Assembly: GCF_013408825.1 (NCBI RefSeq)
Contig: NZ_JACCBZ010000010.1
Span: forward strand, 1-64,000
Reading direction: 5' to 3'
Source: Mucilaginibacter tundrae
GTDB taxonomy: Bacteria > Bacteroidota > Bacteroidia > Sphingobacteriales > Sphingobacteriaceae
Length of the DNA: 64,000 nucleotides
Shown here: piece after piece, positions 1 through 14,238 of the stretch
Layout: the number at the start of each line of letters is the position of its first letter
Position numbering within the stretch: position 1 is the first letter of the stretch
Program-made: the position numbers and the translations under genes
Notes under the pieces: generated by a model
The model's database searches: none
Told to the model about the DNA's origin: nothing
Seen by the model: only the letters and a program-made list of their open reading frames with translations

Positions 1-66
1 GGGTCAGTTTGCCCCGAAATGCCCTGGTCAGTTTGCCCCGAAACAGTGGGTCAGCTTGCGCCGAAA
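1..66. mobile_element. IS21-like terminal repeat array (partial element)
   Basis: Three near-identical direct repeats of 18 bp lie at 2-19, 26-43 and 49-66, with a period of 23-24 bp; the third differs from the others at two positions. Each reads GGTCAGTTTGCCCCGAAA or a close variant. Multiple short repeats inside the ends are a known feature of IS21-family elements, where they bind the transposase, and similar GGTCA...CCGAAA arrays occur at Bacteroidetes IS21 ends as far as I recall. No istA or istB gene is visible because the element would extend left of the window. The assignment to IS21 is an inference; the repeats themselves are seen directly. Confidence 0.45.
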
Positions 67-243
67 TGGTGTGGTCTCATTCATCATAATCTCCAGATTA
101 AGCATCGTGGGCTTTATCATAAATTAAAGAAAAACCCTAAAATTGAGGTTAAAGCTCAAGCTTTTCTTGCAAAGCATGAAGGGTTAAAAGTTAAAGATGA
201 GATATTACTCTATATGTTTCCTGAATTGAAGCAATATAATTGA
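19..243 (+). CDS. Unrecognised ORF starting inside the repeat array
   Basis: An open frame of 74 codons starts within the direct repeats and ends at 243. The first 20 or so codons are only the repeat read as protein. The rest is lysine-rich (for example KLKKNPKIEV and FLAKHEGLKVKDE) and could be the C-terminal end of a gene whose 5' part was replaced by the mobile element. I recognise no family. It may equally be non-coding. Confidence 0.25.
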   Translation: MPWSVCPETVGQLAPKWCGLIHHNLQIKHRGLYHKLKKNPKIEVKAQAFLAKHEGLKVKDEILLYMFPELKQYN

Positions 244-284
244 TAGTTTATCTTACATTGTAAATACGTTAAAGAAGAATTTTA

Positions 285-1519
285 TTAAATAGCCTTCTTA
301 AATCTCATTAAACTTTTAGTTACTTCAATTTTCGAATCGTCATCAAAATCTCCAAGATAATTTTTCGTTGTCTCCGGCTTCGTATGCCCTAAAGATTCTT
401 GAATTTGAAATATTGGAACATTAGCTTTTTTCAATACTGTTGCAGCAGTATGTCGAGCGTATATCATTGTAATATTAGGATTTTGAAATTCCAGCTTTTT
501 GCAAACCCGATTAAAATACTTGTTTAGGCTATCCGTAAAAGCTCCTTTTTCTTAGTAATAACCTCATCTGTTTTATCATTTTTGTCTAAGATTGGGAAGA
601 TGTAATCGTCATCATTTCGACTAAGATTGCCCCACTTATTTATGATATTAATAATTTCATCTTCAAAACTAATTGATATTAGAGGTCTGTTCGATTGTGT
701 AGTTCTAAAAGTTTTACCTCTATGGTATCTAATCATTTTACCGTCAATATTCGATATTTTAAGCCTTATTATATCATTAACATTCATTCCGTTACACATG
801 TAACTAAACAGCCAAAAATCCTTTGCTCTATCTTCCATTGAATATGGTTCAGTTTGATAATTGAAGATTGCTTCAACAGCGTTAATAGGTAAAGCTTTTT
901 TTACTTTTCTACCGCCCGGAATTTGATATTTGTACTTACCAAAAGGATATTCAAAATCTTTTTTAAGATAGTTTTTACTAATTGAATAGTTGATTATGGC
1001 TCTCAAAGCACGGCAATAGATACTTACAGTTGTTTCAGATTTCCCTTTGATATTTATCATCCAATTTTGATACTTAATCAAAAATTGAGCATCTATATCA
1101 TAGAAATCTAATTTTGGTCTAAAACTTTTAAATGATTCCATAGCTGTATTATAATTAACTGAGGTTTTATAACAACCGCTATCTCTCTTCATTACTATAA
1201 ACTCATCAAAAATCGTATACACATTGGACGTTTCTTTTTTTATGTTATAGAATTCATCCTTGAATTTTTGAAAAGTAAAATGTTCAATATTTGCCACAAC
1301 TTCATTTGCTTTAGAAGTCAAAGCATCTAATTTGTACCTAATCTCTTTGTACTTTTTGGGTGGATTTGGAAGTATTGCATTGTCATATTCTTCTTTTGTT
1401 AAGAATAATTGAGTTTTACAATCTTTAGTCTTCCTGTTATGGCAAATTCTAATTTTTACCGGAAATTTTCCATCTTTTTTTTCTCGATTGACAAGAATCA
1501 CACGAGGCCTTACATACAT
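285..1519 (-). pseudogene. Tyrosine recombinase (integrase), broken by one frameshift
   Basis: A Bacteroidetes-type site-specific recombinase. The first 331 codons (1519 to 524) contain an Arm-type N-terminal DNA-binding region, a SAM-like core-binding domain around residues 95-205 and the start of the catalytic domain. The remaining catalytic part, with YARHTAAT, the LGHTKPETT segment and the nucleophile region NYLGDF, is read in another frame down to 285. The two parts join perfectly if one T is added to the run of five T at 546-550, so a single-base loss in a homopolymer explains the break. The gene sits beside a tRNA-Val 3' half, the expected place for an island integrase, and reads away from it. 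The shift may be a real mutation or a sequencing error; if an error, the recombinase is intact at about 410 residues. Confidence 0.85.
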
Positions 1520-1688
1520 TGTTTAATAAATTTCTTTTGTTCATACCGTTTTTTTCAATGCGATTTCAATGCAAAGGTAACTGTAATGAGAAGCTAAAAG
1601 AAACAAAAATCAATATAAAGAACTGTTTTTCAGCATTATATATACTATCGGAAGTAATCGGAAACTATCAGAAAACATATTTTTCTTT

Positions 1689-1732
1689 CTTACAAGCAGA
1701 GGGTCACTGGTTCGAACCCAGTAACTCCCACA
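1689..1732 (+). other. tRNA-Val(UAC) 3' half, probable attachment site
   Basis: The sequence runs from an anticodon loop with TAC (CTTACAAG, 1689-1696) through a variable loop GGGTC, a T-arm with stem ACTGG / CCAGT around TTCGAAC (1706-1722) and the acceptor strand AACTCCC followed by ACA. The anticodon stem-loop, variable loop and T-arm follow the layout of bacterial tRNA-Val(UAC). The 5' half is absent: upstream is unrelated AT-rich sequence. A 3' tRNA segment beside an integrase gene is the usual attR-type scar left by integration into a tRNA gene. The intact tRNA should lie off the left edge. Confidence 0.8.
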
Positions 1733-1757
1733 AATAGGGAAACAAATAATCCCAAAA

Positions 1758-1789
1758 CCCTGTAAATTATATGATTTACAGGGTTTTTT
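1758..1789 (+). terminator. Rho-independent terminator behind the tRNA-Val fragment
   Basis: A perfect 10-bp stem, CCCTGTAAAT (1758-1767) with ATTTACAGGG (1774-1783), has a 6-nt loop and six T after it. It lies 26 bp after the tRNA fragment and most simply is the terminator of the original tRNA-Val gene, meaning the DNA to its right was next to that gene before the left-hand element inserted. Confidence 0.85.
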
Positions 1790-1827
1790 GTTTTCAGCCC
1801 ACTCAATTAATCCATACTTTCTTAATG

Positions 1828-1989
1828 TTTAGAGTACCAAAGTGAGTACCAGATTTCGTTTTATAGATTTGTGGTACTCTAAAACGTTATAATTAATTGT
1901 TTTTCAGATGATTAACCTTGAAAAAACGTATTAAAAATAACCTGTTTTTAGCCTGTTTGACATGGTATTTCCAGCGGTTTGGAGTACCA
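1828..1989. repeat. Four copies of GAGTACCA, including a 12-bp inverted repeat
   Basis: GAGTACCA occurs at 1832-1839, 1844-1851 and 1982-1989 in the forward sense and as TGGTACTC at 1872-1879. The first and the reversed copy extend to a perfect 12-bp inverted repeat, TTTAGAGTACCA (1828-1839) and TGGTACTCTAAA (1872-1883). All lie in the 240 bp before the second integrase pseudogene. They could be recombinase arm or core sites of that older element, or operators; this is inference. Confidence 0.5.
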
Positions 1990-2029
1990 AATATCAAATC
2001 AATTTAAAATGTAATAAAATAAATTAAGT

Positions 2030-3119
2030 ATGAAAGCAACAACAGATTCAGTATTCACTTCAAAATGAGGGCTGAAAGAGCGAAAGATGGTATTGCGCCG
2101 GTATTTTTAGGCCTTGTCGTCGACGGCTGTAAGAATTATTTGGCTTTAAAAAACTTTCAGGCCGATACGAACCATTGGGACAAAGTAAAAGGCGGCGGCA
2201 GGAAGGATACCAAGCAATGCCGCGCGATTAATGAGTACCTAGACGAAGTGAGGATCGCCATTAGGGGGCATTATCGAGACATGGAACTCAATGGCATAAG
2301 GATAACTATTGATACGCTAAAAGATGCTTTTCTTGGGAATTTACGGGAAGAAACCCCTATTATGTTCAGCGAATTAATTGCATATCACAATGAACAGGCT
2401 TTACTTTAGCCCTACTAAGTATTGGCACGATGCGGCATTATTATGTGACTCAGCGCTACCTAATCAAGTTCTTCAAGCAAAAGTATAAAAAAGACGATTA
2501 CCAGCTAACCACAATTAATTACAAATTTATAGCTGATTTCGAAATATTCCTGCATAATCATAAACCATTGGATCACCAAAAGCCGATGGATACCAGTGGC
2601 GTGCTCAAACATTTAGTACTTTAAAAAAGATGGTCAACCTGGCTGTCAGCTTGAGTTGGATTGAAAAAGACCCTTTCAAAGGCTTTAAATTAAAGAAGAA
2701 AAAAGTTGAAAAGGAATTTCTAAACCAGTGGGAACTGGATGCGTTGCAAAATAAAAGATTTGATATTGAACGGCTTGCGATGGTCAGGGATATTCGTTTT
2801 TTGCTGTTACACCGGACTTTCTTATGTTGACGTGATGAATCTAAGACCGGAGCACATTGTCAAGGGGGTAGATGCTGAACCATGGATTAAAACGTTTCGC
2901 CAAAAAACGTCAATTCCTGTTAACACGCCGCTACTTAACCAGGCACAAACCATTATTGCTAATTACCAGGGAAATAATCGAGCCAAAGCAACTGGCACCG
3001 TGTTCCCGGTCATCAGCAATCAAAAGATGAATAGCTACCTGAAGGAAATTGCCGACTTCTGTGGCGTTAAAAAGAATCTCGCCTTTCATATTGCCCGGCA
3101 TACGTTTGCAACGAACTAA
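2030..3119 (+). pseudogene. Second tyrosine recombinase, several frameshifts and C-terminal loss
   Basis: A Bacteroidetes phage-integrase-like gene can be followed through four frames: an ATG at 2030 gives 12 codons, a lost A in the run at 2062-2065 moves it to the frame ending 2409, then to 2430-2624, then 2630-2830, then to the frame ending at 3119. The pieces keep family order: an N-terminal Arm domain (RAERAKDGIAPVFL), the SAM-like core-binding domain, and the catalytic start with CCYTGLSYVDVMNL and HIARHTFATN. The protein stops right after the Arg box, so the final GH box and tyrosine nucleophile are missing. It cannot be functional. It reads away from the tRNA fragment and probably marks an older island to its right. 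Confidence 0.85.
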
Positions 3120-3224
3120 AACACCTTATCCCGTTATTGCTAAGCATGATCTTTTCCCTTTAATTATAGTTACGCTGAGTTACTTTTATCTAAAATCAGT
3201 TAATAACATAAAGCAACTATTAGG

Positions 3225-3908
3225 ATGATACAAATTAATAACCTTTCAAAAAGCTATGGGCGCAAATTAATATTGAATGATATCAGTTTACAGTTTGAAC
3301 CAGGCAATATATATGGAATCATCGGTGAAAATGGAGCTGGGAAAACTACGCAATTCAGATGCATGACGGGATTAGAAAAATTCGAAGGCAACATAGTGTC
3401 AGATTACGATATTTTAAAAAACAATATTGGCATGTTGCAAACTGAACCATATTTTTTAAACCGAATTACCGGACGGGAATATATACAGTTATTCATTAAC
3501 GCCCGGGGCAAATCAATTGTGGATTTAAGCGATAAAAACATCTTAGATCTACCGCTTGATCAATATATAACCACCTATTCAACAGGCATGAAAAAAAAAA
3601 TAGCTTTGATGGCCATTTTATTGCAACAAAATACCTGTTACATCTTAGATGAACCGTTTAATGGTGTTGACCTTCAAAGTAACCTCGTTATACTTGAAAT
3701 AATTAAAACATTAAAAAAATTAAATAAGATTGTTATTATTTCCTCTCATATTTTCAATACACTCAACGAATTATGCGATCAAATATGTTTACTAAGAGAC
3801 GGGAAAGTTATAAAAAAGGTAGGTAAAGAAACCTTTCATGAAATTGAACAGGAAATTTCGGAGAGTTTTACGGTAACGGAAAAGGTAAAAAAGCTTATGT
3901 TAATATAG
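3225..3908 (+). CDS. ABC transporter ATP-binding protein, peptide/bacteriocin exporter type
   Basis: A 227-residue ABC ATPase. Walker A is GENGAGKTT near residue 34, the signature is the divergent YSTGMKKK form typical of ABC-2 style exporters, Walker B is YILDEPF, and the H-loop is in ISSHIF. The family powers export or immunity transporters for antibiotics and lantibiotics at the inner membrane. No permease follows: the next gene is a lantibiotic dehydratase stub, so the ATPase probably remains from a RiPP biosynthesis and transport cluster. The reading frame itself is intact. Specific substrate is unknown. Confidence 0.8.
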   Translation: MIQINNLSKSYGRKLILNDISLQFEPGNIYGIIGENGAGKTTQFRCMTGLEKFEGNIVSDYDILKNNIGMLQTEPYFLNRITGREYIQLFINARGKSIVDLSDKNILDLPLDQYITTYSTGMKKKIALMAILLQQNTCYILDEPFNGVDLQSNLVILEIIKTLKKLNKIVIISSHIFNTLNELCDQICLLRDGKVIKKVGKETFHEIEQEISESFTVTEKVKKLMLI

Positions 3909-4064
3909 CTTATCATAATCATATATCGTGTTTTTTCTTATAATTGAGATCAATCAAGCTTTTAATTTAATTCACCTAACACCTTAAGCTTTGTCAAATA
4001 TTGATATAAAAGTGTTTTTGCTTTTTCAATTAAACACTAAATATCAGGCAACTTCATCAAATAC

Positions 4065-4502
4065 ATGAGCCATAAATATTCTCCCTATCATTTTTTTGAA
4101 AAAATCATATTAAGAACACCTTATTTACCTCTCGGGAATGAGGTTTTATTGAAAGATGTTTACACTTTATTAAAGGATGATTTCTTTTTAGAAGCCATTT
4201 ATCTGGCATCTCCAATACTTTATCACGAAACAATAAAGCTAAAATTAAACTTAATCCCTGGAAAAGAAAAACCAAGGCTCGAGTTATCTCTTTTAAAATA
4301 TTTAAAAAGAATGACGAGTCGTTGTACTCCTTTTGGCTTATTCGCGACGACTGGAATTCCATCATGGTCTGAAAAAAGTGAAATTAAATATAAAAACACT
4401 GACTTTTTCAGACATTCAAGAATCGACATGGAATATCTTGTAAACTTGAGCAGAAACAGGCAGGAAAATACTGCCGCGATCCCAATGGGGATATTGATAT
4501 AA
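4065..4502 (+). pseudogene. Lantibiotic dehydratase (LanB) N-terminal stub
   Basis: This 145-codon frame matches the start of the LanB N-terminal (glutamylation) domain: an opening RTPYLPL segment, a central EAIYLASPILY segment, and the hallmark KRMTSRCTPFGLFATTG. LanB proteins dehydrate Ser and Thr of precursor peptides using glutamyl-tRNA and are about 700-1000 residues, so at most 15-20 percent remains. Similarity fades after about 4440; the last residues before the stop look like out-of-frame sequence. With the ABC ATPase before it and the small peptide gene after it, it marks a decayed class I type RiPP locus. Confidence 0.75.
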
Positions 4503-4879
4503 AGGCATGTTTCATTGGAAGACCGATATAATTAACAAGAGATTAAACTTACATATAAATATTGATTAATGGTGCTAAAACTACCTACCGCCCCTTCAAG
4601 TGTCATACACTTGAAGGATATTTTTTGAACGTCCCGCTCCCGGGTTGCAATTTTACGGAGCCGCAAAATTTGCATTATTATCAGTACTCCTGGTTAATAA
4701 ACTAACGGGAGTGTGGACACTTGATTGGGCGGAGCGGTGTTGTTAAGTATAGATTTTTTTCCAGCCCTCTTTGTGCGCTTCTGTATTACTAACAATACAT
4801 AGCTGTAAGTCAATTGATTATTTTTATTGCCAGTAGTATTATTTGATTAATATGTATATCTTTAGTGAAACTATCATAC
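4503..4879. other. Gene-free stretch after the LanB stub
   Basis: Apart from the hairpin at 4593-4627 I see no gene here. One other frame from about 4452 to 4530 reads QAGKYCRDPNGDIDIKAC, which faintly recalls the Cys-containing SPASM segment of radical SAM peptide maturases; this is too short to call. A GC-rich patch near 4625-4640 (CCCGCTCCCGGG) shows no wider structure. Confidence 0.3.
4593..4627 (+). terminator. Perfect hairpin with T run
   Basis: CCTTCAAGTGT (4593-4603) pairs fully with ACACTTGAAGG (4607-4617) around a CAT loop, followed by ATATTTTTTG. This is a strong Rho-independent terminator behind the LanB stub. The sequence CGCCCCTTCAAG at its left arm recurs at about 5073-5084. 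Confidence 0.7.
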
Positions 4880-5044
4880 ATGGAAAATCAATCTAATATT
4901 ACTACCGCCGAAAAAGAAGTAAAAGCTAGAAAGTTTTGGCAAACCCCTACTATTGAAGTTATAGGCCATGATATTGTGCAGTCGGGCAATATTCCTGGAA
5001 CTGAAGGTTTTGTTTATAATCCCAACTCTACAGGCCATTCTTAA
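4880..5044 (+). CDS. RiPP-like precursor peptide, 54 aa (lasso-type leader suspected)
   Basis: A 54-residue ORF from ATG at 4880 to TAA at 5044. The first 19 residues are charged. Then come KFWQTPTIEVIG and HDIVQSG, which resemble the lasso-peptide leader pattern YxxPxLxxxGxxxxxTxG, with W for Y and Ser for Thr. If cleavage falls before G36, the core is 19 residues starting GNIPGTEG with Glu at position 7, an acceptor position for a macrolactam ring. The core has no Cys, so lanthionine rings cannot form within it. No lasso cyclase or leader protease is present; nearby are only an ABC ATPase and the LanB stub. Coding is supported by start, stop and the leader-like motif; the class is inference. 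Confidence 0.55.
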   Translation: MENQSNITTAEKEVKARKFWQTPTIEVIGHDIVQSGNIPGTEGFVYNPNSTGHS

Positions 5045-5077
5045 AGAACTATATTTCGTGAAAATAGTATACCATCG

Positions 5078-5248
5078 CCCCTTCAAGGTGGCGAACCAGA
5101 TAAGGTTGTCAGTATCCCGGTAAATATCATTGATACAGCTGTTTGAGAGACCGTAGCTATTGTCCATTTGCTGGTAGTTATACTGTCCAGATACATTGGA
5201 GGAAAAAAAAGTAAAAAATATAACTATGACAATATATTGATACTTCAT
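5078..5248 (-). pseudogene. Hybrid two-component regulator, N-terminal stub
   Basis: From ATG at 5248 the frame encodes a signal peptide (MKYQYIVIVIFFTFF to VSGQ) followed by YNYQQMDNSYGLSNSCIND and LIWFATLKG. This is the first blade of the periplasmic Reg_prop propeller of Bacteroidetes hybrid two-component systems, which sense glycans and are normally about 1300 residues. Homology ends near 5078 and the frame then continues by chance to 4874, antisense to the precursor peptide. Only the first 57 residues are left. Confidence 0.65.
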
Positions 5249-5381
5249 TTTTAAAATAATAATGGTTTAAAATCCGGGGGGATTTTTAATTGGTTTGATA
5301 ATTATTTAATTATTCAATCAAAAATAAGGTAAAATATATGAGTTTGATTAATACTATTTTAACAGTATTAATAGGAAATAA

Positions 5382-5610
5382 TTAAACGGAGCTGTTTGTA
5401 CTCTCGAGAATGTCAGTCAGAAAAATTACTTTCTGTTTAATCAATTCCGGATTTACTTCCAGTACGGCTGCGATTCTGTTGATTCCATTTTTGTCGCGAA
5501 TCTCACGGGTTTTAGATTTGTTATATACCAGCCGTCTCGTTCTTCATCGTTATACTTCTCCATTGCTGCATTAAACAATGTCCTAAGGTCGCGCATGATA
5601 AACAGTAAGG
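5382..5610 (-). pseudogene. Recombinase core-binding scrap plus unknown C-terminal fragment
   Basis: Two overlapping minus-strand fragments. In one frame, around 5596 to 5540, FIMRDLRTLFNAAMEKYND matches the SAM-like core-binding helix of Bacteroidetes integrases. In another frame, from about 5530 to the stop at 5382, SKTREIRDKNGINRIAAVLE and ELIKQKVIFLTDILES form a protein-like C-terminal end that I do not recognise. Neither has a full gene around it. They close the accessory region just before the FHA gene. Confidence 0.45.
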
Positions 5611-5626
5611 ATAGTTCCGAGCTAAA

Positions 5627-6415
5627 TTAGCCTGTCTTGGCTTGCAAACTAAACTCCATTGCTACTGAATCTCCGATTATTATTTGGTCGCCCTCTGCCA
5701 AGCGGTGGCCTATTTTAGTGGAATTTAGCTTCACCAAATATTCGTCTTTTATTGTTTTAACCTTGGTTTTATTACCCGGGGGGATACCGCCTTCATCTGC
5801 ATACAGCATAAAACTACCATCTTCTTTATTCCACTCAATATGCGCGTGTTGCCTACTGATGAATTTATTGCTTGGGTTTTTGCTATCGCCCGGAAATGCA
5901 ATCTGATTAGCTCTGAAGGAGCCGTCAGCAACCTGAGCTTTTGCTTCCCGACCGATATTGATTTTACCAGAGTCGGAAGTTACATGATATTGCTGTTGCT
6001 CAGCTTCGCCATTTAGGATGTTGATATAAGCTGATCCCGTCTTTGTAATTACATGGTCTTTTGTGCGGATAAAAAGCGCGACATCCAGTTCTTTAGACTT
6101 TAAGGCTTCAGGAGGTATTGCGTCATCAAAACTGATCTCCAATGTCCAATTTGCTGGAAGGTCAAGAGCATAATCATCTGCAATTTTTTGAATTTCATTT
6201 TTAAAGCGTCCCGGCTCTTCAGTATAAATAGCAGCTTCGTAAATATGCTTTTTATTACCATTGGCAGCGATAAAAAGATTAACCCCTTTAATATAGCTAC
6301 CTTCTCCTCCTTCCGTCTTTTGTAATTCGGCCTTTATAAAACGTAGTAATACATCGCGAAGGGTTTTAACGTCCTGCTGGCTTTTATCTGTGTGTTTTTT
6401 GAATAAATCAAACAT
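5627..6415 (-). CDS. FHA domain protein, last gene of the kinase/wall operon
   Basis: A 262-residue cytoplasmic protein without membrane segments. Residues 1-100 form an N-terminal region of unknown fold; residues about 150-258 form an FHA domain with INIGRE (R156), the SRQH signature (S187, R188, H190) and a final EGDQIIIGDSVAMEF strand. FHA domains bind phosphothreonine peptides, so the natural partners are the operon's own Ser/Thr kinase and its targets. The start ATG is 6 bp after the stop of the SEDS-PBP fusion gene, so it is cotranscribed. In Actinobacteria FhaB/FipA sits in the equivalent cluster. Binding residues are present, so phosphopeptide binding is likely; the ligand is unknown. 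Confidence 0.85.
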   Translation of the reverse strand: MFDLFKKHTDKSQQDVKTLRDVLLRFIKAELQKTEGGEGSYIKGVNLFIAANGNKKHIYEAAIYTEEPGRFKNEIQKIADDYALDLPANWTLEISFDDAIPPEALKSKELDVALFIRTKDHVITKTGSAYINILNGEAEQQQYHVTSDSGKINIGREAKAQVADGSFRANQIAFPGDSKNPSNKFISRQHAHIEWNKEDGSFMLYADEGGIPPGNKTKVKTIKDEYLVKLNSTKIGHRLAEGDQIIIGDSVAMEFSLQAKTG

Positions 6416-6421
6416 GATGAA

Positions 6422-9400
6422 TCAATTATCTGAAATGCTTTTTATATAACCCTTTTTCAACAATATCGGAATAATATCCCGACCGGCAAGATGTACTGCA
6501 TCCGACGAGCCTTTGGTAGATTCAATACGAATACAAACCACCAAATTACCCGTACTGTTTGGCATTGGCGCGAAAAATACATACCAGCCATCGTTTATAC
6601 TTTGTTGCTTCCAAATACGTTCCGGAGTGCCCGTTTTGCCAGCTACTTTTATCCCCAGGATTTCGGATTTCGGGGCACTTTGTTCAATCATATATTTGGT
6701 GATTGTAGCAGCATATTGCGGGTCGGCGGCCAGCTTAGTCCCATCTTGTACAGGTTGCACTATACCATCAACTTTTAAAACAAAACGATTAGCCAGCAAT
6801 GTTCCATTATTAGCCACTCCAGATACAAGCCGAGCCACTGCAGCGGGTGTAGCAATCAATGCGCCCTGACCCCAAGCCATTCCTGATATGCCTATAGCAC
6901 GTGTTTTATGAATATTATCCGGGTCGTACTTTGGTTTGGTATTAAATTCAGTTTTGCGCCAAAGTTCTTTCCATCTTTCTTCCTGTTGAGCATTGTCGGT
7001 AGATTTGGTATAAAAATAGCCACCAACGCCATGCAAAAACATGCCGGTTTTTAAATAGAGGTCGCTCATTTGTTCTTCAAGATGTTCCTGGTTAGCCAAC
7101 TTGATAAAATATACGTTGTTTGACTTGGCTATGGCGTTTTCAAGTGTTATAAGCCCGGTTTCATCAGGTTCAACTCCTTTTGTACGGATACGTTCAGCCA
7201 TACTTACATTGAAAGTAACATTATCGGCCGCCATACCCAATTTATTAAATGAGGCCATTGCTGTCAGTATCTTGGCTGTTGATCCGGGTTGCGTAGCATA
7301 GGTAAATCCCAGGTCACTGGTTGTTATCCATTGGGAAAGCTTGTTTTGATCAGGAACGGGCATGGTCAGCTGATCGTAATTATGGATTGGCGGCAAAGGG
7401 TAAACTGCCGAGGCTAAAACATCGCCGGTGCCTGCTGCCATCACCACAACTGATACTCGATTATCTACAAGGTCAGGATCATCGGCCATGGTTTGCTCTA
7501 TACGGGTTTGCAATTCCGCGTCAACAGATAGCTGCACATCGCGATTACGCTTTTTAAACTGAGCTACTTCGTCGCTGTTAATACCTGCGATAAGTAGGGG
7601 AGCCAATGCGCTATAATCGCGCTTTTGAACCGACATCTCTTTTACGCCTCGTGGTAAAAAACGATCTTCCTTGTAATGAGTGGCATGTACATTATAATTG
7701 GTTACAGGCATTTGGAAACCCCGCAATTCAGCAGCATGTTCGTATTCGGCAAAATAACCATTAGTGCTGCCGTTGAAAACACCGGTATTAGCATCACCCG
7801 TCCAGAAAAACATTTGTGAATCAAATGGATAATACCTTGTGAGGCGTATGTGCACGGCTGAATCTAAATCATATTGACTCGCCCCGGCGGTATTTAACCG
7901 GTCTTGCTGCTGCCTGATCAATAACGGATCGCTGGTAGCTAATACCAAGCCTTCACGGTCATAAATAGTTCCGGCTTGCAGTTTATTCATCATTATTGCG
8001 ATACGCGGATTATAGCTAAACATACGTGCGCCGCTTTTATCTGCAACTAAAGCAGGTTTAACTATCCATTTATCACTTTCAAATAAATAGCCGGATATGT
8101 TGATCACCAGCAAAATGATACCTATGCAAGCCGCTATTAAAGCCGGTACCAGATTATGGTCCTGCTGTTTGGTAATAAATGACATTTGTACTGGAGTTCC
8201 TTTTACTCTTGAGGCCGACAATAAAAAACCAGCGGCTAGAAAATTTGCAACCAGCGAAGATCCGCCATAACTTTCAAACGGTAACGCTACGCCTGATAAT
8301 GGCAAAGCTCCGGTAGAGCCACCCGCTATCAATAAAAACTGGATAAAAGTACAGATGCCAATGCCTGCGCATAAATAGAATAGGAAAGGCATACCTGTTT
8401 GGCGGCCAATAATTATAGAACGGTGCAGGTATAAGAGGAATAAACTAAATATGGCTACAATACCTGTCCAACCAAATTCTTCGCCAATCGCAGGCAAAAT
8501 CATATCAGTATGTGCTTCGGGAATGGTTTTGGCAAAACCCTGGCCCACGCCTTGGCCTGTAATACCACCGCCGGACATGGCCCAAAGGCCATTAGCTACC
8601 TGGTCGCCGCCATATACTTCATTGTTCCAGGCATCTTCCCATATTGCTTTTCGGTCAGACAACCGCTCAACCGGTCCAGGGATTAACTTATCCAGGTGCG
8701 GTATTTTATCAATGGTAAGAAATGCCGAAATAATGATCAACGCCATAACAGCTGATTCACTCAGTCGCCTGCCTTTAGAAAGCATCATGACAAACACTCC
8801 GACTGCGGTAATTAAAGTAGAAAGCCAAACGTTTTTAAATAGCCAGGTAAGTAATACATAGAATACTACCGCAATGGCCATGGAAATAAAATCGCCGCGG
8901 GAAAAAGAAAAAAGGATAATAAAGGTAAAACAAATGATTATGGCAGGCCCCATATCGCCCAGCATCAGGAAAAGGAAGAGGGTTATGCAAATAGCGATCA
9001 GCGCAAATGAAAAGAATGACCATCGTTTTCGCCAGCTGGCATACTCACTGATAAATTTTTCATTTATAGCGAAGAAACCGGCGAGGAAAATGATTACCAG
9101 GTATTTTACAATTTCGCTAGGCTGAAAGCCGAATAAGTTGACTTTTACACCGCTGCCTTCAGGGCCTGAACCAAAGCGAATGGTGAGTATCAAAAGAGTC
9201 ATGGCAATCACTATCCAAGGCCAGCCATTTGCCGCTTTGGGGTTGTTTTTAAATACTAACAGCCTATAAATAGTTGAATCAGCATTGAAGCGCCTGATAT
9301 TGCACACCAGCAATATAACCATGGCGCCAAAACCTAATACTAAATAGACAAGTGAATCCTTAGCAAAAAAACGGTCGCGCAAAGGATCTTGAATACTTAA

Positions 9401-10480
9401 CAACATTAAAAATGAAATTCCGGTTAGGATCATTATTAATGGTAGGATGAATTGGTCTGATGCAGGAAACTTCCAGCTAAGCAAAAGATGCATCAGGAAA
9501 AAGCACAGGAAAAAGATAGCGACGATAGCTAAATACCAAAAATTAAAAGCTGCAGGTGTACGTATGATGAGTGCTTTTTCTTTTTTTAGTATGTTGAAAT
9601 CTTTGGTTGATAATAACCGTATGGTGTGCTTGGATCTACTGAAATCAAAAGATTCCTCTTGACCAAGGCTTTCGGTACCCTTGGCTCTGCCAAACTGGTA
9701 ACCGGGCTGCAGCGGTAATATAACAAAGGCTTTTCCTTGGGGAAGATTTTTAAAAGCATATTCGCCGCTTGAACCGGTGCGGGCAAAAGCAGTTATGGCT
9801 TGAAGATGGCTTTGCCCTTGCACGTCTTTAATGTAAGTTATTTGGTATCCCTTCCCGGTAGTTGTTTTTACTTTGGTTTGGTCGGTTTCCTCATCGTTGA
9901 ATGTGCTATCCTGCGGTATAATCATTTGCAATCTGATCAATACGCCAGCAACGGATGATCCTTTATCCAAGATTTTACCGCTTATACTGTAGCCACTTAA
10001 GCCAACATCCGTTTGCTCAGGTAATTGCGGTGGATCGTTTTTTTCCTGTGTAAACCTTGATGAATCATTACCTGTATAGCCTAATAATTCGCGTGAAACC
10101 GCCACCCGGTCTTTAAATGATTTGCCCCCCGATGCAAACGCTTCATCGGCGTCAATATTAAACTTGGATTTATTCAAATCACCAATATTATCAAATGCAG
10201 CTCCAGTCATTTGCTTGCTAACCACGCTGCCAATTAGTTCAATATCTTTTGGGTCATTAAAATAAAATCCTTTTTGAAGCAAGCGGGTAAAGCTACCTGC
10301 AGGATTTTTCGCGTTGAGGTTAACCATGGTGCCATCTTGCAGGCGCTTGTCAACATCTGTAAAACTTTGTTGATGCACCTGGTACAACCGTAGGAACAGC
10401 AACCCCAATAACAGGCTTATTAGCGCTAAAAACAAGCGTTCTTTTTTCCTGGAAACAAATTGCGGTTTTACCTGCTGCAT
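6422..10480 (-). CDS. SEDS glycosyltransferase - penicillin-binding transpeptidase fusion
   Basis: A single 1352-residue membrane protein combining both activities of wall elongation. Residues 17-33 are a first membrane segment; 160-290 look like a carboxypeptidase-regulatory-like beta-sandwich outside the membrane; 313-790 form a RodA/FtsW/SpoVE (SEDS) polymerase with FQPSEIVKY (452-460), the catalytic loop EAHTDMILPAIGEEFGW (655-671, Asp659 matching the essential RodA aspartate) and ESYGGSS. Residues about 830-1352 form a class B PBP: SxxK at S1067-K1070 in PGSTAK, SxN at S1120-N1122, KTG at 1282-1284. All key residues are present. Normally RodA and PBP2 are separate partners about 370 and 620 residues long. 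PP2C ends 4 bp before this gene and the FHA gene starts 6 bp after it. Confidence 0.92.
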   Translation of the reverse strand: MQQVKPQFVSRKKERLFLALISLLLGLLFLRLYQVHQQSFTDVDKRLQDGTMVNLNAKNPAGSFTRLLQKGFYFNDPKDIELIGSVVSKQMTGAAFDNIGDLNKSKFNIDADEAFASGGKSFKDRVAVSRELLGYTGNDSSRFTQEKNDPPQLPEQTDVGLSGYSISGKILDKGSSVAGVLIRLQMIIPQDSTFNDEETDQTKVKTTTGKGYQITYIKDVQGQSHLQAITAFARTGSSGEYAFKNLPQGKAFVILPLQPGYQFGRAKGTESLGQEESFDFSRSKHTIRLLSTKDFNILKKEKALIIRTPAAFNFWYLAIVAIFFLCFFLMHLLLSWKFPASDQFILPLIMILTGISFLMLLSIQDPLRDRFFAKDSLVYLVLGFGAMVILLVCNIRRFNADSTIYRLLVFKNNPKAANGWPWIVIAMTLLILTIRFGSGPEGSGVKVNLFGFQPSEIVKYLVIIFLAGFFAINEKFISEYASWRKRWSFFSFALIAICITLFLFLMLGDMGPAIIICFTFIILFSFSRGDFISMAIAVVFYVLLTWLFKNVWLSTLITAVGVFVMMLSKGRRLSESAVMALIIISAFLTIDKIPHLDKLIPGPVERLSDRKAIWEDAWNNEVYGGDQVANGLWAMSGGGITGQGVGQGFAKTIPEAHTDMILPAIGEEFGWTGIVAIFSLFLLYLHRSIIIGRQTGMPFLFYLCAGIGICTFIQFLLIAGGSTGALPLSGVALPFESYGGSSLVANFLAAGFLLSASRVKGTPVQMSFITKQQDHNLVPALIAACIGIILLVINISGYLFESDKWIVKPALVADKSGARMFSYNPRIAIMMNKLQAGTIYDREGLVLATSDPLLIRQQQDRLNTAGASQYDLDSAVHIRLTRYYPFDSQMFFWTGDANTGVFNGSTNGYFAEYEHAAELRGFQMPVTNYNVHATHYKEDRFLPRGVKEMSVQKRDYSALAPLLIAGINSDEVAQFKKRNRDVQLSVDAELQTRIEQTMADDPDLVDNRVSVVVMAAGTGDVLASAVYPLPPIHNYDQLTMPVPDQNKLSQWITTSDLGFTYATQPGSTAKILTAMASFNKLGMAADNVTFNVSMAERIRTKGVEPDETGLITLENAIAKSNNVYFIKLANQEHLEEQMSDLYLKTGMFLHGVGGYFYTKSTDNAQQEERWKELWRKTEFNTKPKYDPDNIHKTRAIGISGMAWGQGALIATPAAVARLVSGVANNGTLLANRFVLKVDGIVQPVQDGTKLAADPQYAATITKYMIEQSAPKSEILGIKVAGKTGTPERIWKQQSINDGWYVFFAPMPNSTGNLVVCIRIESTKGSSDAVHLAGRDIIPILLKKGYIKSISDN

Positions 10481-10484
10481 AATG

Positions 10485-11879
10485 CTATTTTGTTTTTACA
10501 GGTAAAGAATCGACCTTGATTGTTATTGATGAAACCTGTCCGCTCACGTATTTTTTATTAGCAATATAAGACTGACGAACAGCCGGTTTGCAGTTATTAA
10601 AGCGGACATTTTTAAGATTTAACACACTGTTGTTCAAATCTATAGCAGGAGTAAATCCACTAAATGATAAGCTATCTAATACTACATGCTTACTCTTTAC
10701 TGTTAGTATTAACGCGGGGCCGGCATACCCGGTATCAGCTTGTATTATAATATTACCTTTTGCCTTGATCAATAAGGAATCCTTGTCAATAATAATGGCT
10801 TTGCTAATAATCAGTGGGCTGGTAAACGCTGTATCTGAAAGTATCAATATTTTCCCTTTCATATTGCTTATTGCTTGCTGCAATTTGATTTCCTGGCGGT
10901 TGGGCAACTTTACCACAGGTGGTTCAACTGGCTTAACAACGGGTATCAACCTGTATAAATAAACACTTGTACCCAAAAATATCAAAGCCAGGATAGCGAA
11001 AATAATAACAGCAATATTACTTTTCTTTTTACGAAAAGGTTCAATTATCAAAGGTTGTTCAATTTCTTTAATTATTGGTTTGAGTTTGGTCGCACTTTCA
11101 GTAACCTTAGTTGGCGCATATTGCTGCGGCGTTTTATCATTTTGAACAAGTACAACAGTAACATTATCGCGGCCACCATTTTCGTTGGCCATATCAATAA
11201 GCAGTTTTGTTTTCTCTTTTAAAGCAATCGGCTGGTTTAAAATTGAAGCAATGTCGGCTGCATTCACCATGTCGGATAACCCATCTGTACATAACAGTAA
11301 TTGGTCGCCTGGAAGGAAAGGAGATTGTCCGGTTTCAATATAATCAGGGTTTTGATTCAGGTCAATTTCAAATCCCAAGGCTTTGTTGATTTCGTTTCTG
11401 CGGGGATGCGTCATTGCCGCGTGCTCTGTCAAACGGCCGGATTCCTCCAAAAAGCCCACGAAAGATTGATCATGCGAAATTTTTACCAGCGAACCATCCC
11501 TGAATAAATATAATCGGGTATCGCCAACGTGTGCATACAAAAGCTGATTATTCGCTAAATCTATCAGCACGGCTGTGGCTACACAGCTCATCTTTTCATA
11601 TTCACGGTTGCTTTTTTTTTCAGCAATAATTCGCTCATTCGCTAAATGAAAACACTCAGCAAGTATAGGAATGGACTCAGTAAAGGGTGTTTCCACACAA
11701 TCAATTATAGCAGCCCTTGCATGTTCGGCTGCGACTTCACCACCCGCGTAGCCACCCACGCCATCAATAACCGAAGCCAGTATAAATTTATGACCATGCA
11801 GGTATTGTGCAATAAATAAGTCTTCATTGTTTTCACGCTGCCTGCCGGTGTCGGATAATCCAAAAAACTGTTCAGTCAT
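10485..11879 (-). CDS. Membrane-anchored PP2C Ser/Thr phosphatase
   Basis: A 464-residue protein. Residues 1-248 are a PP2C/PstP catalytic domain with the metal-binding motifs RENNED (D20), VIDGVGG (D39), HVGDTR, CTDGLSD (D199) and GGRDNVTVV (D238). A membrane segment lies at about 287-309. Residues 330-464 form an outside domain rich in alternating hydrophobic residues with a TLDSL-like ladder (for example VVLDSLSFSGF, NLKNVRFNNC), suggesting a small right-handed beta-helix. It should reverse phosphorylation by the operon kinase. Its ATG overlaps the stop of the 32-residue membrane miniprotein by 8 nt. Actinobacterial PstP has a short tail instead of a beta-helix, so the ectodomain is distinctive. 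Confidence 0.9.
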   Translation of the reverse strand: MTEQFFGLSDTGRQRENNEDLFIAQYLHGHKFILASVIDGVGGYAGGEVAAEHARAAIIDCVETPFTESIPILAECFHLANERIIAEKKSNREYEKMSCVATAVLIDLANNQLLYAHVGDTRLYLFRDGSLVKISHDQSFVGFLEESGRLTEHAAMTHPRRNEINKALGFEIDLNQNPDYIETGQSPFLPGDQLLLCTDGLSDMVNAADIASILNQPIALKEKTKLLIDMANENGGRDNVTVVLVQNDKTPQQYAPTKVTESATKLKPIIKEIEQPLIIEPFRKKKSNIAVIIFAILALIFLGTSVYLYRLIPVVKPVEPPVVKLPNRQEIKLQQAISNMKGKILILSDTAFTSPLIISKAIIIDKDSLLIKAKGNIIIQADTGYAGPALILTVKSKHVVLDSLSFSGFTPAIDLNNSVLNLKNVRFNNCKPAVRQSYIANKKYVSGQVSSITIKVDSLPVKTK

Positions 11880-11970
11880 TTATTTTTCGTGATTGTTTGA
11901 TGTCTGAAAAATGTACGATCAACAGGGCGATGCTGATAACCAATAACCCAATAGACAGTATTTGTGACAT
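11872..11970 (-). CDS. 32-aa single-pass membrane miniprotein
   Basis: A 33-codon ORF from ATG at 11970 to TGA at 11872. It starts 3 nt after the FhaA-like gene's stop (11974-11976) and overlaps the PP2C start by 8 nt, fitting translational coupling. The product begins MSQILSIGLLVISIALLIV, a single hydrophobic helix, and ends with a charged tail HFSDIKQSRKIND. I know of no family. The position, filling the gap exactly between two tightly packed genes, argues for a real gene; a role as a small partner of the kinase, phosphatase or SEDS-PBP protein is a guess. Confidence 0.6.
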   Translation of the reverse strand: MSQILSIGLLVISIALLIVHFSDIKQSRKIND

Positions 11971-11973
11971 AAG

Positions 11974-12924
11974 TTATGATTTAAATAGGTTGATGCCTAC
12001 TATGCCATTCAGTAATATCTTTGAATTTATAGGTAACTCTTTCCAAATTGGAGCGTTGATATCACTCCTCGGTACTTCCTGCTCATTTACTATGGTTAAT
12101 TCTCCTAAAGATGCCAGGTAGAATTTGCCATCAGCCCTGTTAAATCGTATCAATAAATGCGGGCTGTTTACCCATTCAGTGGGAATCTTAAAAATATAAC
12201 TGTCCTTACGTTCCTCTTCATTGCCGGATACGATGATCTCTTTATCACTCATCAAATACTCTACCTTTTTGCCTGTAAACTGTTTTTCAGGAAGAATAGT
12301 TTCCAGCCTTGCCAGGTATTTTTCCTCGGGCTTTGGATTTCCCTTTTCGTCATAGCTTAAATCCTCCAAATACGGAATCTCAAAATACCCTTCGCTATAA
12401 TAATTAAAGCCTTTAAGGATATCCTCACTAATGTCAAAAGTTTGTGCTATACCTGTTTGCCTTGGAATAAATGTTACCCGCAGGTTTTCTTCTTTCTTAT
12501 TACTGCCCGCCAAAAGTTTCCCAATGAAACCAATATCTCCCCTTGCATAATCAGGGTGTGATACCAAGCGAAACACCCATTTGGAACTTGAAGGTTCCAC
12601 AGTTTTGCCTGTCTCGCGGTATTGCTTTAGTAATTCGTAAAACTTTTTTACGCTTTCATTTACGATAAGTCCGAAAATGCCTTCTTTATTATTGATGAAC
12701 TCTTGGTAATCCTCTGAATTAAGACTGATAATATATTCATGATAAAATACGATACGACCGCCAAATGATAATTGCCTGATGCTATCAGTAAACTTATCAA
12801 TAACATAATTATAAATGTCATCAGGGGTAAGCATGAGTTGCTTTTTATTAATACCCGTATTTTCGCTGGTTAAAAACCAGTTTTGAATGCCCATTCGCTG
12901 CCATATGGAGGTTTTTTGATCCAT
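11974..12924 (-). CDS. FhaA-like protein (FhaA N-terminal region plus degenerate FHA fold)
   Basis: A 316-residue soluble protein. Residues about 30-140 resemble the N-terminal domain (DUF3662) of actinobacterial FhaA, including GRIVFYHEYIISLNSEDYQEF, comparable to the NEYIITLGVHDFEKL stretch of mycobacterial FhaA. Residues about 206-316 have the strand pattern of an FHA domain (SPHLLIRF, FYLASLGELTIVN, INSKILLNGIVG), but the GR pair is replaced by SG in EIIVSGN and the SRxH motif by SPHL, so phosphothreonine binding is probably lost. It abuts the kinase stop with no gap. The match is by eye and needs a profile search; the operon context supports it strongly. Confidence 0.6.
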   Translation of the reverse strand: MDQKTSIWQRMGIQNWFLTSENTGINKKQLMLTPDDIYNYVIDKFTDSIRQLSFGGRIVFYHEYIISLNSEDYQEFINNKEGIFGLIVNESVKKFYELLKQYRETGKTVEPSSSKWVFRLVSHPDYARGDIGFIGKLLAGSNKKEENLRVTFIPRQTGIAQTFDISEDILKGFNYYSEGYFEIPYLEDLSYDEKGNPKPEEKYLARLETILPEKQFTGKKVEYLMSDKEIIVSGNEEERKDSYIFKIPTEWVNSPHLLIRFNRADGKFYLASLGELTIVNEQEVPRSDINAPIWKELPINSKILLNGIVGINLFKS

Positions 12925-14238
12925 TTAATTTTGATTATTGTTATTAGTGGTATCTGTAGCCGTGCTATCGGGGCTTCCCGCCTTGTTTTGTTCAGATTTT
13001 ATGACATCGTCAATTGTGCTTTTGGTAGCGGAATCTGCTTGTTTTCGCTTGTTTTCGTAATTTGTGTTTTCCGGTGCAGGCATTACAGGTGTACTGTCCG
13101 GTTTTCGAACTGAATCAGGAATTGCTTGAGTAATTACCTTAGCAGGCGTATTGTTCCTTTTTAACAAAGTGAAAGCATTATAAAACAATGATCCTACAAG
13201 CAATATAACCAAAGCTGCAAAAACACCTGTAGAAACAATCATTTTGCCTTCATTTAGTGCCTGTCCGGCAATCGGAATTGCAGGTACGGCTACCTCCGAA
13301 ACTACTTCGCGCACGGCCTCTGTTTTTATTTCAGCTATGCTGCCTCGCGCTATTACCTCATGTAATTCTGAACCATTACTATAGCGGCTTTCCGGCTGCT
13401 TTTCAAGGCAATGATTAATTAGCGTAATAAGCCACAAAGGCACCTGCATTTCGCGTTCCTGCTGTGCTTTAGACCAGCTTTGCGGTAGGTTCTGCCGACG
13501 CAGGTGCAGCACATCAGGCACGGCAGACTCCATGTGCGCCAGCATTACCGTATTCCTTGCTGTTTCTCCGTTATCATGCAGAGGAAAAGGCACCTGGCCG
13601 GCTAAGAGCTCGTATAAAATAATACCGTAACTGTAGATGTCCGTGCTGAACAACATTTTACCTTCATTTTGCTCAGGCGCCATAAATTCAATGGCTCCAG
13701 CATGCCGCATACTACTACGGCGCTGTTCATCTGACATTACCGACAGGCCAAAGTCCAGCAACACATAATTGCCTGAGTGGATATTGAATTTTACATTATT
13801 ACTCTTAATGTCGCCATGTTTTACACCTACTTTATGACAATGTGATAAAGCGCAAGCCAGCTGATCAGCCAGTTTGATGGTTTCTTTTATCGTAAAGACC
13901 TTTTCATTAGGGGCTTTCAGCAGTTCCTCCAGGTCAGGGCCTTCTATAAACTCCATTTCAATAAACGGGAAAGATCCACTTTCTGTGATGCCCGAGTTAA
14001 GTATCTTAACTACATTAGGGTTTGGTACTTCGTTTACCTTTTTAAGCTTTTCAACTTCGTTTATAAAATTCCGATAGTTCTTATCTTCTTCGCTTTCACT
14101 GTGAATCGGAGTTGGTAATATTTTAACAGCAGTAATTATCTGCCCGATGCGTTTGCCTTTGTATACTGAACCCTGACCTCCGGTTCGCAATGCGCCAAGG
14201 TTTTCTAGTCCCTCTGTTATAGTAAATACCTTGCTCAT
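12925..14238 (-). CDS. Transmembrane Ser/Thr protein kinase, first gene of the wall operon
   Basis: A 437-residue Hanks-type kinase. The catalytic domain spans about residues 5-295: glycine loop RTGGQGSVYKG, ATP lysine K39 in AVKIL, catalytic loop HGDIKSNN (H141, D143, N148), DFGLS (D162) and the P+1 region MAPEQ. The residue before the catalytic Asp is Gly rather than Arg, so it is a non-RD kinase, which often do not need activation-loop phosphorylation. A membrane segment lies at about 333-355; the last 80 residues are a Thr/Asn/Lys-rich outside tail with no PASTA repeats. It begins the operon that continues with the FhaA-like, miniprotein, PP2C, SEDS-PBP and FHA genes. Confidence 0.9.
   Translation of the reverse strand: MSKVFTITEGLENLGALRTGGQGSVYKGKRIGQIITAVKILPTPIHSESEEDKNYRNFINEVEKLKKVNEVPNPNVVKILNSGITESGSFPFIEMEFIEGPDLEELLKAPNEKVFTIKETIKLADQLACALSHCHKVGVKHGDIKSNNVKFNIHSGNYVLLDFGLSVMSDEQRRSSMRHAGAIEFMAPEQNEGKMLFSTDIYSYGIILYELLAGQVPFPLHDNGETARNTVMLAHMESAVPDVLHLRRQNLPQSWSKAQQEREMQVPLWLITLINHCLEKQPESRYSNGSELHEVIARGSIAEIKTEAVREVVSEVAVPAIPIAGQALNEGKMIVSTGVFAALVILLVGSLFYNAFTLLKRNNTPAKVITQAIPDSVRKPDSTPVMPAPENTNYENKRKQADSATKSTIDDVIKSEQNKAGSPDSTATDTTNNNNQN

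Follow-up and report, generated by a model that had tools for sequence, protein, structure and literature searches.

Linkage of kinase and phosphatase genes with rodA and pbpA is reported for Actinobacteria, and partly also for Firmicutes, in passages of PMC6554272, which leave Bacteroidetes unmentioned, and passages of the same paper describe how knockdown of the pstP operon halts the growth of Mycobacterium smegmatis. A term search of PMC6207328, PMC8262863 and PMC10920833 returned no passage on a natural fusion of a SEDS polymerase with a penicillin-binding protein (PBP), and no Bacteroidota cluster of this kind is described in the titles and abstract beginnings of the open-access papers that our searches listed, a scope that leaves subscription papers outside. 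The window analysed here, the first 64,000 nucleotides of contig NZ_JACCBZ010000010.1 of Mucilaginibacter tundrae, holds six minus-strand open reading frames (ORFs) at 5627–14238 that encode a transmembrane Ser/Thr kinase, an FhaA-like protein, a microprotein, a PP2C phosphatase, a SEDS-PBP fusion and an FHA protein. Judged from sequence and phylogeny, this operon is likely to be an accessory, phosphorylation-controlled peptidoglycan synthase module that is homologous to the actinobacterial fhaA-pstP-rodA-pbpA-pknAB cluster. Our preliminary description, which had interpreted it as a counterpart of that wall-control cluster in a Gram-negative bacterium, is largely supported.

The six genes are tightly spaced, with 0, 3, −8 (an overlap), 4 and 6 bp between them from the kinase to the FHA protein; all of the ORFs first described are present, and their types are backed by Pfam except for the FhaA-like protein and the microprotein. 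The kinase (437 aa; 12925–14238; Pkinase, expectation value (E) 6.9e-38) is followed by the FhaA-like protein (316 aa; 11974–12924), in which profile comparisons of relatives recognise an FhaA_N-like N-terminal half and a degenerate FHA domain. The one-helix microprotein (32 aa; 11872–11970), conserved in relatives, lies between it and the PP2C phosphatase (464 aa; 10485–11879; PP2C_2, 8.9e-13), whose start it overlaps by 8 bp. Next come the SEDS-PBP fusion (1352 aa; 6422–10480; FTSW_RODA_SPOVE, 1.5e-45, and Transpeptidase, 5.9e-25, in one ORF) and the FHA protein (262 aa; 5627–6415; FHA, 1e-4). This operon accounts for the sole FHA match and for one of the two kinase matches that exceed the Pfam cut-off in the genome, and the same neighbours surround the fusion in other genera; the neighbourhood therefore goes beyond chance. 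A chance neighbourhood was also ruled out by the census of relatives' loci.

Kinship to the actinobacterial cluster, beyond mere resemblance, is supported by the SEDS tree and by profile comparisons of FhaA. The reference clusters, taken from plasmid-collection records of Tsukamurella (L133), Actinomyces oris (L174), Nonomuraea (L172) and Arthrobacter (L175), hold FhaA, FhaB, PstP, RodA, PbpA and two kinases, with Actinomyces typed by annotation. FhaA, PstP and RodA are each split over ORFs in the Arthrobacter record, and its RodA, split over two frames, was excluded from the trees. SEDS and transpeptidase trees were built from the window fusion and 13 of the 102 census loci, and the SEDS tree also included five FtsW and five RodA rows from Bacteroidota. 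With 38 rows, the SEDS tree joins the fusions with the actinobacterial cluster RodA, two Streptomycetaceae SEDS and the Monoglobus SEDS at 100/99 and sets them apart from Bacteroidota RodA and FtsW; the approximately unbiased (AU) test rejects joining them to RodA (p 0.0011) or FtsW (p 0.0034). A 44-row tree without Monoglobus agrees, and BLAST against 12 SEDS references gave Monoglobus or Nonomuraea as the best match for 5/5 fusions. For the FhaA-like protein, a chain of profiles leads from actinobacterial FhaA to the basal Bacteroidota set (215 columns, 96.6%, 5.5e-10), from there to the intermediate set L044–L046 (97.9%, 3.5e-13), and on to the clade of the window (302 columns, 99.8%, 3.7e-30). 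Homology of the family to actinobacterial FhaA is thus supported through intermediate profiles. The window protein has no Pfam match over the cut-off; at E up to 5, FhaA_N was matched in 4/18 members (best 4.9e-6) and FHA in 8/18. A PDB search with the FhaA-like profile found FHA-domain chains (best 4.1e-6), with the FHA domain of mycobacterial TB39.8 at 2.1 and AcrB and a binding protein at chance level. The SEDS tree, the AU tests and the profile chain together support the claim of a Gram-negative counterpart.

The core of the operon, FhaA-like protein, PP2C, SEDS-PBP fusion and FHA protein, is conserved in order among relatives, as our preliminary description required. The census covered 102 loci besides the window; 96 are unique, and 79 of the unique ones extend 6 kb or more to either side. 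Genes were typed with purpose-built hidden Markov models, and the loci, all retrieved with a single protein, are not independent. Downstream of the fusion, 77 of the 79 have the FHA protein; upstream of it, 76 have the FhaA-like protein and 74 have PP2C (71 typed, including a Roseithermus fusion, and three found by tblastn in the gap). Within 6 kb, 33 loci have one kinase, 36 have two, 3 have three and 7 have none, so that 72 have any; kinases stand upstream only in 33 loci, downstream only in 26 and to either side of the fusion in 13. The complete set of four partners is found in 67/79 loci, or 70 with the tblastn cases. Exceptions are L048–L050 (UBA2364 type), with neither PP2C nor kinase in range, L047 and L051, kinase-less by count, L064 with the FHA protein only, L078 without the FhaA-like protein, L106 without FHA, and L101 with none of the four. 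The lack of a kinase in Roseithermus sacchariphilus L051 is partly an edge effect, as the duplicate L052, which extends 429 bases beyond it, shows a kinase outside the cluster, 5.1 kb upstream of the fusion, whose repeat region looks WD40-like by eye. The preliminary description had also required that kinase and phosphatase not vary freely, which stands for the phosphatase and for the presence of a kinase nearby but not for the kinase's place, number (0–3) or subtype. The kinase is the loose part of the cluster, which the phosphatase and the FHA proteins are not.

The fusion is the third SEDS protein of the genome, standing beside the housekeeping pair genes. Its own genome, the scope of our PBP search, carries FtsW on the same contig as an FtsI-like gene and, on another contig, RodA adjoining PBP2, and two further unfused SEDS genes occur in 21/21 carrier genomes searched. 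The separate RodA and PBP2 that had been expected elsewhere are therefore present, and a housekeeping RodA/PBP2 identity for the fusion is ruled out. Unfused SEDS from carriers, placed in the 44-row tree, fall with FtsW (8) or RodA (7); most of the carriers' unfused SEDS genes were assigned to FtsW or RodA by match pattern only, with the two of G322 not told apart. The fusion scores below the cut-offs of the curated equivalogs (ftsW 157.4/337.5 bits, rodA 126.9/336.7 bits), and a PDB search with its profile matched SEDS and PBP structures. Membrane helices, here and throughout predicted by a simple hydropathy scan, lie at residues 14–36 and 308–340, in the SEDS set, and at 774–802 ahead of the transpeptidase, which fits a layout of extracytoplasmic N-terminal domain, SEDS, and then PBP with its own helix. 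The predicted N-terminal domain (residues 37–307; 9560–10372) has a CarboxypepD_reg match in 9/12 members scanned. It precedes the SEDS domain (residues about 342–765; 8186–9457), with its conserved HTD motif, and the class B transpeptidase domain (6512–7453), with SxxK, SxN and KTG. Across 96 unique fusions, HTD is intact in 96, SxxK in 94, SxN in 95 and KTG in 94, and the window fusion has all of them. As a side observation, genome G187 carries, beside its cluster version, a second, divergent fusion of 1307 aa (L184, 4166–8089), and none of the four partner types was found in the 13 kb around it. Another genome (G473:C1:3404462-3408492) has the fusion divided over two pieces with a slight overlap; the first piece stops near residue 302, at the end of the extracytoplasmic N-terminal domain.

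A kinase is termed non-RD when Gly replaces the Arg of its HRD motif. The window kinase is of this kind, with the catalytic loop HGDIKSNN in a kinase domain (13375–14187) that keeps DFG and APE, and it has one predicted helix at residues 330–360. Across cluster kinases, HGD loops (74/126) and HRD loops (50/126) characterise the clades, and a tree including PknA and PknB recovers two clear cluster clades, with two other rows from the M. tundrae genome badly aligned (branch length 10). No PASTA domain was matched in the window kinase, which scores 135 bits with NF033483, where the cut-off is 450. That the window once had a second kinase downstream and lost it was considered, since L032–L037 have one there, and rejected, with no remnant found in 1–5640 (best E 0.13); several other relatives likewise carry an upstream kinase only. 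The catalytic part of the window PP2C is predicted to be cytoplasmic and its tail extracytoplasmic, joined by one helix at 284–315, and at least one helix is predicted in 76/83 PP2C proteins of the cluster.

FHA domains bind phosphothreonine through GR and SRxH residues. Both signatures are intact in the downstream FHA protein of the window (FHA domain 5672–5956) and in 91/92 relatives. In the FhaA-like proteins, they occur together in 5/86, all basal (L047–L051), and the window protein reads SG and SPH at these positions; neither window protein has a predicted membrane helix. An intact signature downstream and a degenerate one upstream thus predict a single protein that reads phosphothreonine and a second that probably serves as a scaffold. 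The earlier proposal that FHA adaptors, in the plural, tune the synthase is accordingly narrowed to a single predicted reader, the FhaA-like domain having lost its binding signature in this clade.

The microprotein has one predicted helix and no Pfam match whatsoever. A short hydrophobic ORF starting with ATG follows the FhaA-like gene in 86/87 unique loci with an upstream FhaA-like protein, and 78 of the 86 carry the tail motif [HN]F..[LIVM][KRP], against 32/4080 random control windows; the motif was defined after viewing the sequences and the controls are random positions rather than gene ends, which makes the contrast descriptive. The 78 motif-bearing microproteins measure 23–36 residues, 67 of them starting 0–9 bp past the FhaA-like stop, and four of the eight ORFs without the motif are wrong-frame picks by eye.

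Phosphorylation control of the synthase would follow by homology, and we infer each step of the circuit. The SEDS half would polymerise lipid II and the class B PBP half would crosslink the product, both within one polypeptide. The transmembrane kinase and the transmembrane PP2C may between them govern how much phosphothreonine a cytoplasmic site carries; that site perhaps lies on one of these two enzymes, on the FhaA-like protein or in a cytoplasmic loop of the synthase. The downstream FHA protein would read this mark and then switch or place the synthase, with the FhaA-like protein as a putative non-reading scaffold in the clade of the window and the microprotein possibly coupling phosphatase and synthase within the membrane.

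The cluster is accessory and patchy in its distribution. Full-length fusions were found in 10/61 genomes and 6/25 genera of the family, and fusion matches (E up to 1e-60) in 15/395 genomes and 8/170 genera of a phylum sample. Within Mucilaginibacter, matches at E up to 1e-100, a few of them partial, occur in 101/149 genomes and 82/117 good-quality ones, and the nearest named relatives, at 74–76% identity, belong to this genus. The best 80 of 239 relatives in a scan of named genomes, which used Bacteroidota-type patterns and makes no claim on other phyla, are all Bacteroidota by title, among them Pedobacter, Mucilaginibacter, Spirosoma, Larkinella, Niastella, Segetibacter, Roseithermus and others. 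The whole cluster also lies on the 136,743 bp plasmid unnamed7 of Spirosoma oryzicola (L134), which suggests horizontal spread, and the cluster may be mobile between genomes. Two side observations concern single genomes. Flavobacterium sp. SUN052 (L101) has a Spirosomataceae-type fusion without FhaA-like protein, PP2C or kinase in range, possibly a transfer or a stray contig; Pedobacter panaciterrae O48 (L084, L089) has two fusions on one contig with identical last 600 residues, which points either to duplication of the cluster or to a repeat in the assembly.

This distribution bears on when the synthase would be used. A back-up synthase for a special state such as envelope stress, beta-lactam exposure or rest, rather than a growth enzyme, is a serious possibility that nevertheless falls clearly short of even; it would account for the accessory occurrence in the genus (101/149), the two other SEDS genes in every carrier searched and the plasmid-borne copy, and it is compatible with a phosphocontrolled module rather than opposed to it. 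The stress, sporulation-like rest or polar-growth role first suggested is a guess.

It is unlikely that the synthase is genuine while the kinase, the phosphatase and the FHA proteins have another regulatory target and are merely co-inherited with it. The loci without a counted kinase and the varying position and number of kinases would suit such an arrangement, but the FhaA-like and FHA proteins flank the fusion in nearly all census loci and the same pairing recurs in actinobacterial clusters. Moreover, PP2C, SEDS and PBP form one ORF of 1384 residues in Roseithermus sacchariphilus (L051, 6762–10916; also L052), which argues for a phosphatase acting at the synthase; in the related L047, PP2C is a separate gene. 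Both L051 and L047 have, by eye, a LysM-type lytic-transglycosylase-like gene upstream.

Several results weigh against homology to the actinobacterial cluster. The best BLAST match among 10 transpeptidase references is Monoglobus for 5/5 fusions, but the margins are partly narrow (for one fusion 86.3 vs 85.5 bits, 0.8 over its own PBP2). The transpeptidase tree gives no firm placement (AU p 0.036 against Bacteroidota PBP2 and 0.055 against FtsI), and PF21922 (PBP_dimer_2, the PbpA dimerisation domain), present in three reference PBPs, was matched in 0/12 fusions at E up to 0.5. Where a link of the FhaA profile chain is bypassed, the matches are weak (30% between window clade and basal set, 32% between actinobacterial and intermediate sets) and in each case confined to the FHA part. 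The kinase count within 6 kb is zero in 7/79 loci and the kinase type depends on lineage. The unplaced transpeptidase half, the variable kinase types and a window kinase without a PASTA match speak for another origin, in which Bacteroidota would have duplicated and fused RodA/PBP2 or FtsW/FtsI of their own and recruited the genes for kinase, phosphatase and FHA proteins separately. We regard such convergent assembly as very unlikely in view of the SEDS tree with its AU tests, the FhaA homology found via profiles and the FhaA-PP2C-SEDS-PBP order shared with the Actinomyces and Tsukamurella clusters. An anti-phage or other kinase-based defence system is hardly credible and was rejected, as the kinase matches to the PADLOC models PD-T4-6 and mad6 look like generic kinase-domain matches and the four other proteins scanned, the microprotein lying outside the scan, matched no PADLOC model with an E of 1e-5 or below.

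The flank of the operon holds other remnants. Tyrosine integrase fragments at 285–1519 and 2065–3119 (Phage_int_SAM_5 and Arm-DNA-bind_5 in 524–1519, the remainder by eye) place mobile-element debris close to the operon. An ABC transporter ATPase (3225–3908), an N-terminal lantibiotic dehydratase fragment (4065–4502; Lant_dehydr_N, 6.9e-18) and a small ORF without a Pfam match that by eye resembles a precursor peptide (4880–5044) probably make 3225–5044 a decayed lanthipeptide locus. The consensus of the Bacteroidota-type promoter pattern had 5 matches in the window against 5.04 expected, none of them upstream of the operon.

We propose tentatively, with a little less than even confidence, that Bacteroidota keep an ancient Gram-negative branch of kinase-FHA-RodA-PbpA control as a dedicated third synthase, in which polymerase and crosslinker, and in Roseithermus also the phosphatase, are joined in one chain, and that the conserved membrane microprotein, about 30 residues long, regulates SEDS-PBP activity in a way so far unrecognised. 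If Gram-negatives have a homologous version that is accessory, phosphocontrol of a SEDS-PBP synthase could be deleted and dissected there. The one-chain synthase would be a natural, fixed 1:1 SEDS-PBP complex of use for structure and assay, the PP2C-SEDS-PBP ORF points to direct phosphatase action at the synthase, and the microprotein is a new candidate regulator.

Compared with known systems, the fusion shares with the Bacteroidota RodA-PBP2 and FtsW-FtsI pairs the combination of a SEDS polymerase and a class B PBP, but these pairs belong to other clades of the SEDS tree and are separate genes elsewhere in the same genome. The clostridial trio of Monoglobus (L169) likewise combines an FHA gene with neighbouring SEDS and PBP genes, its SEDS falling in the same clade as that of the fusion, whereas its SEDS and PBP are separate and no kinase or phosphatase is annotated in its 18.8 kb stretch. 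Full membership in the actinobacterial fhaA-fhaB-pstP-rodA-pbpA-pknA-pknB cluster is opposed by the fused SEDS and PBP with their extra extracytoplasmic N-terminal domain, by the lack of a PBP_dimer_2 match in the 12 fusions scanned and by the window kinase without a PASTA match. The Bacteroidota cluster also differs in being accessory, in including a microprotein, in placing its second FHA protein, with no predicted helix, after the synthase, and in the degenerate FHA domain of most of its FhaA-like proteins. Gene content, the FhaA-PP2C-SEDS-PBP order, the SEDS clade, a single-helix PP2C and kinase and the FHA signature are nevertheless common to both, and the Bacteroidota cluster is probably a homologous, remodelled version of the actinobacterial one.

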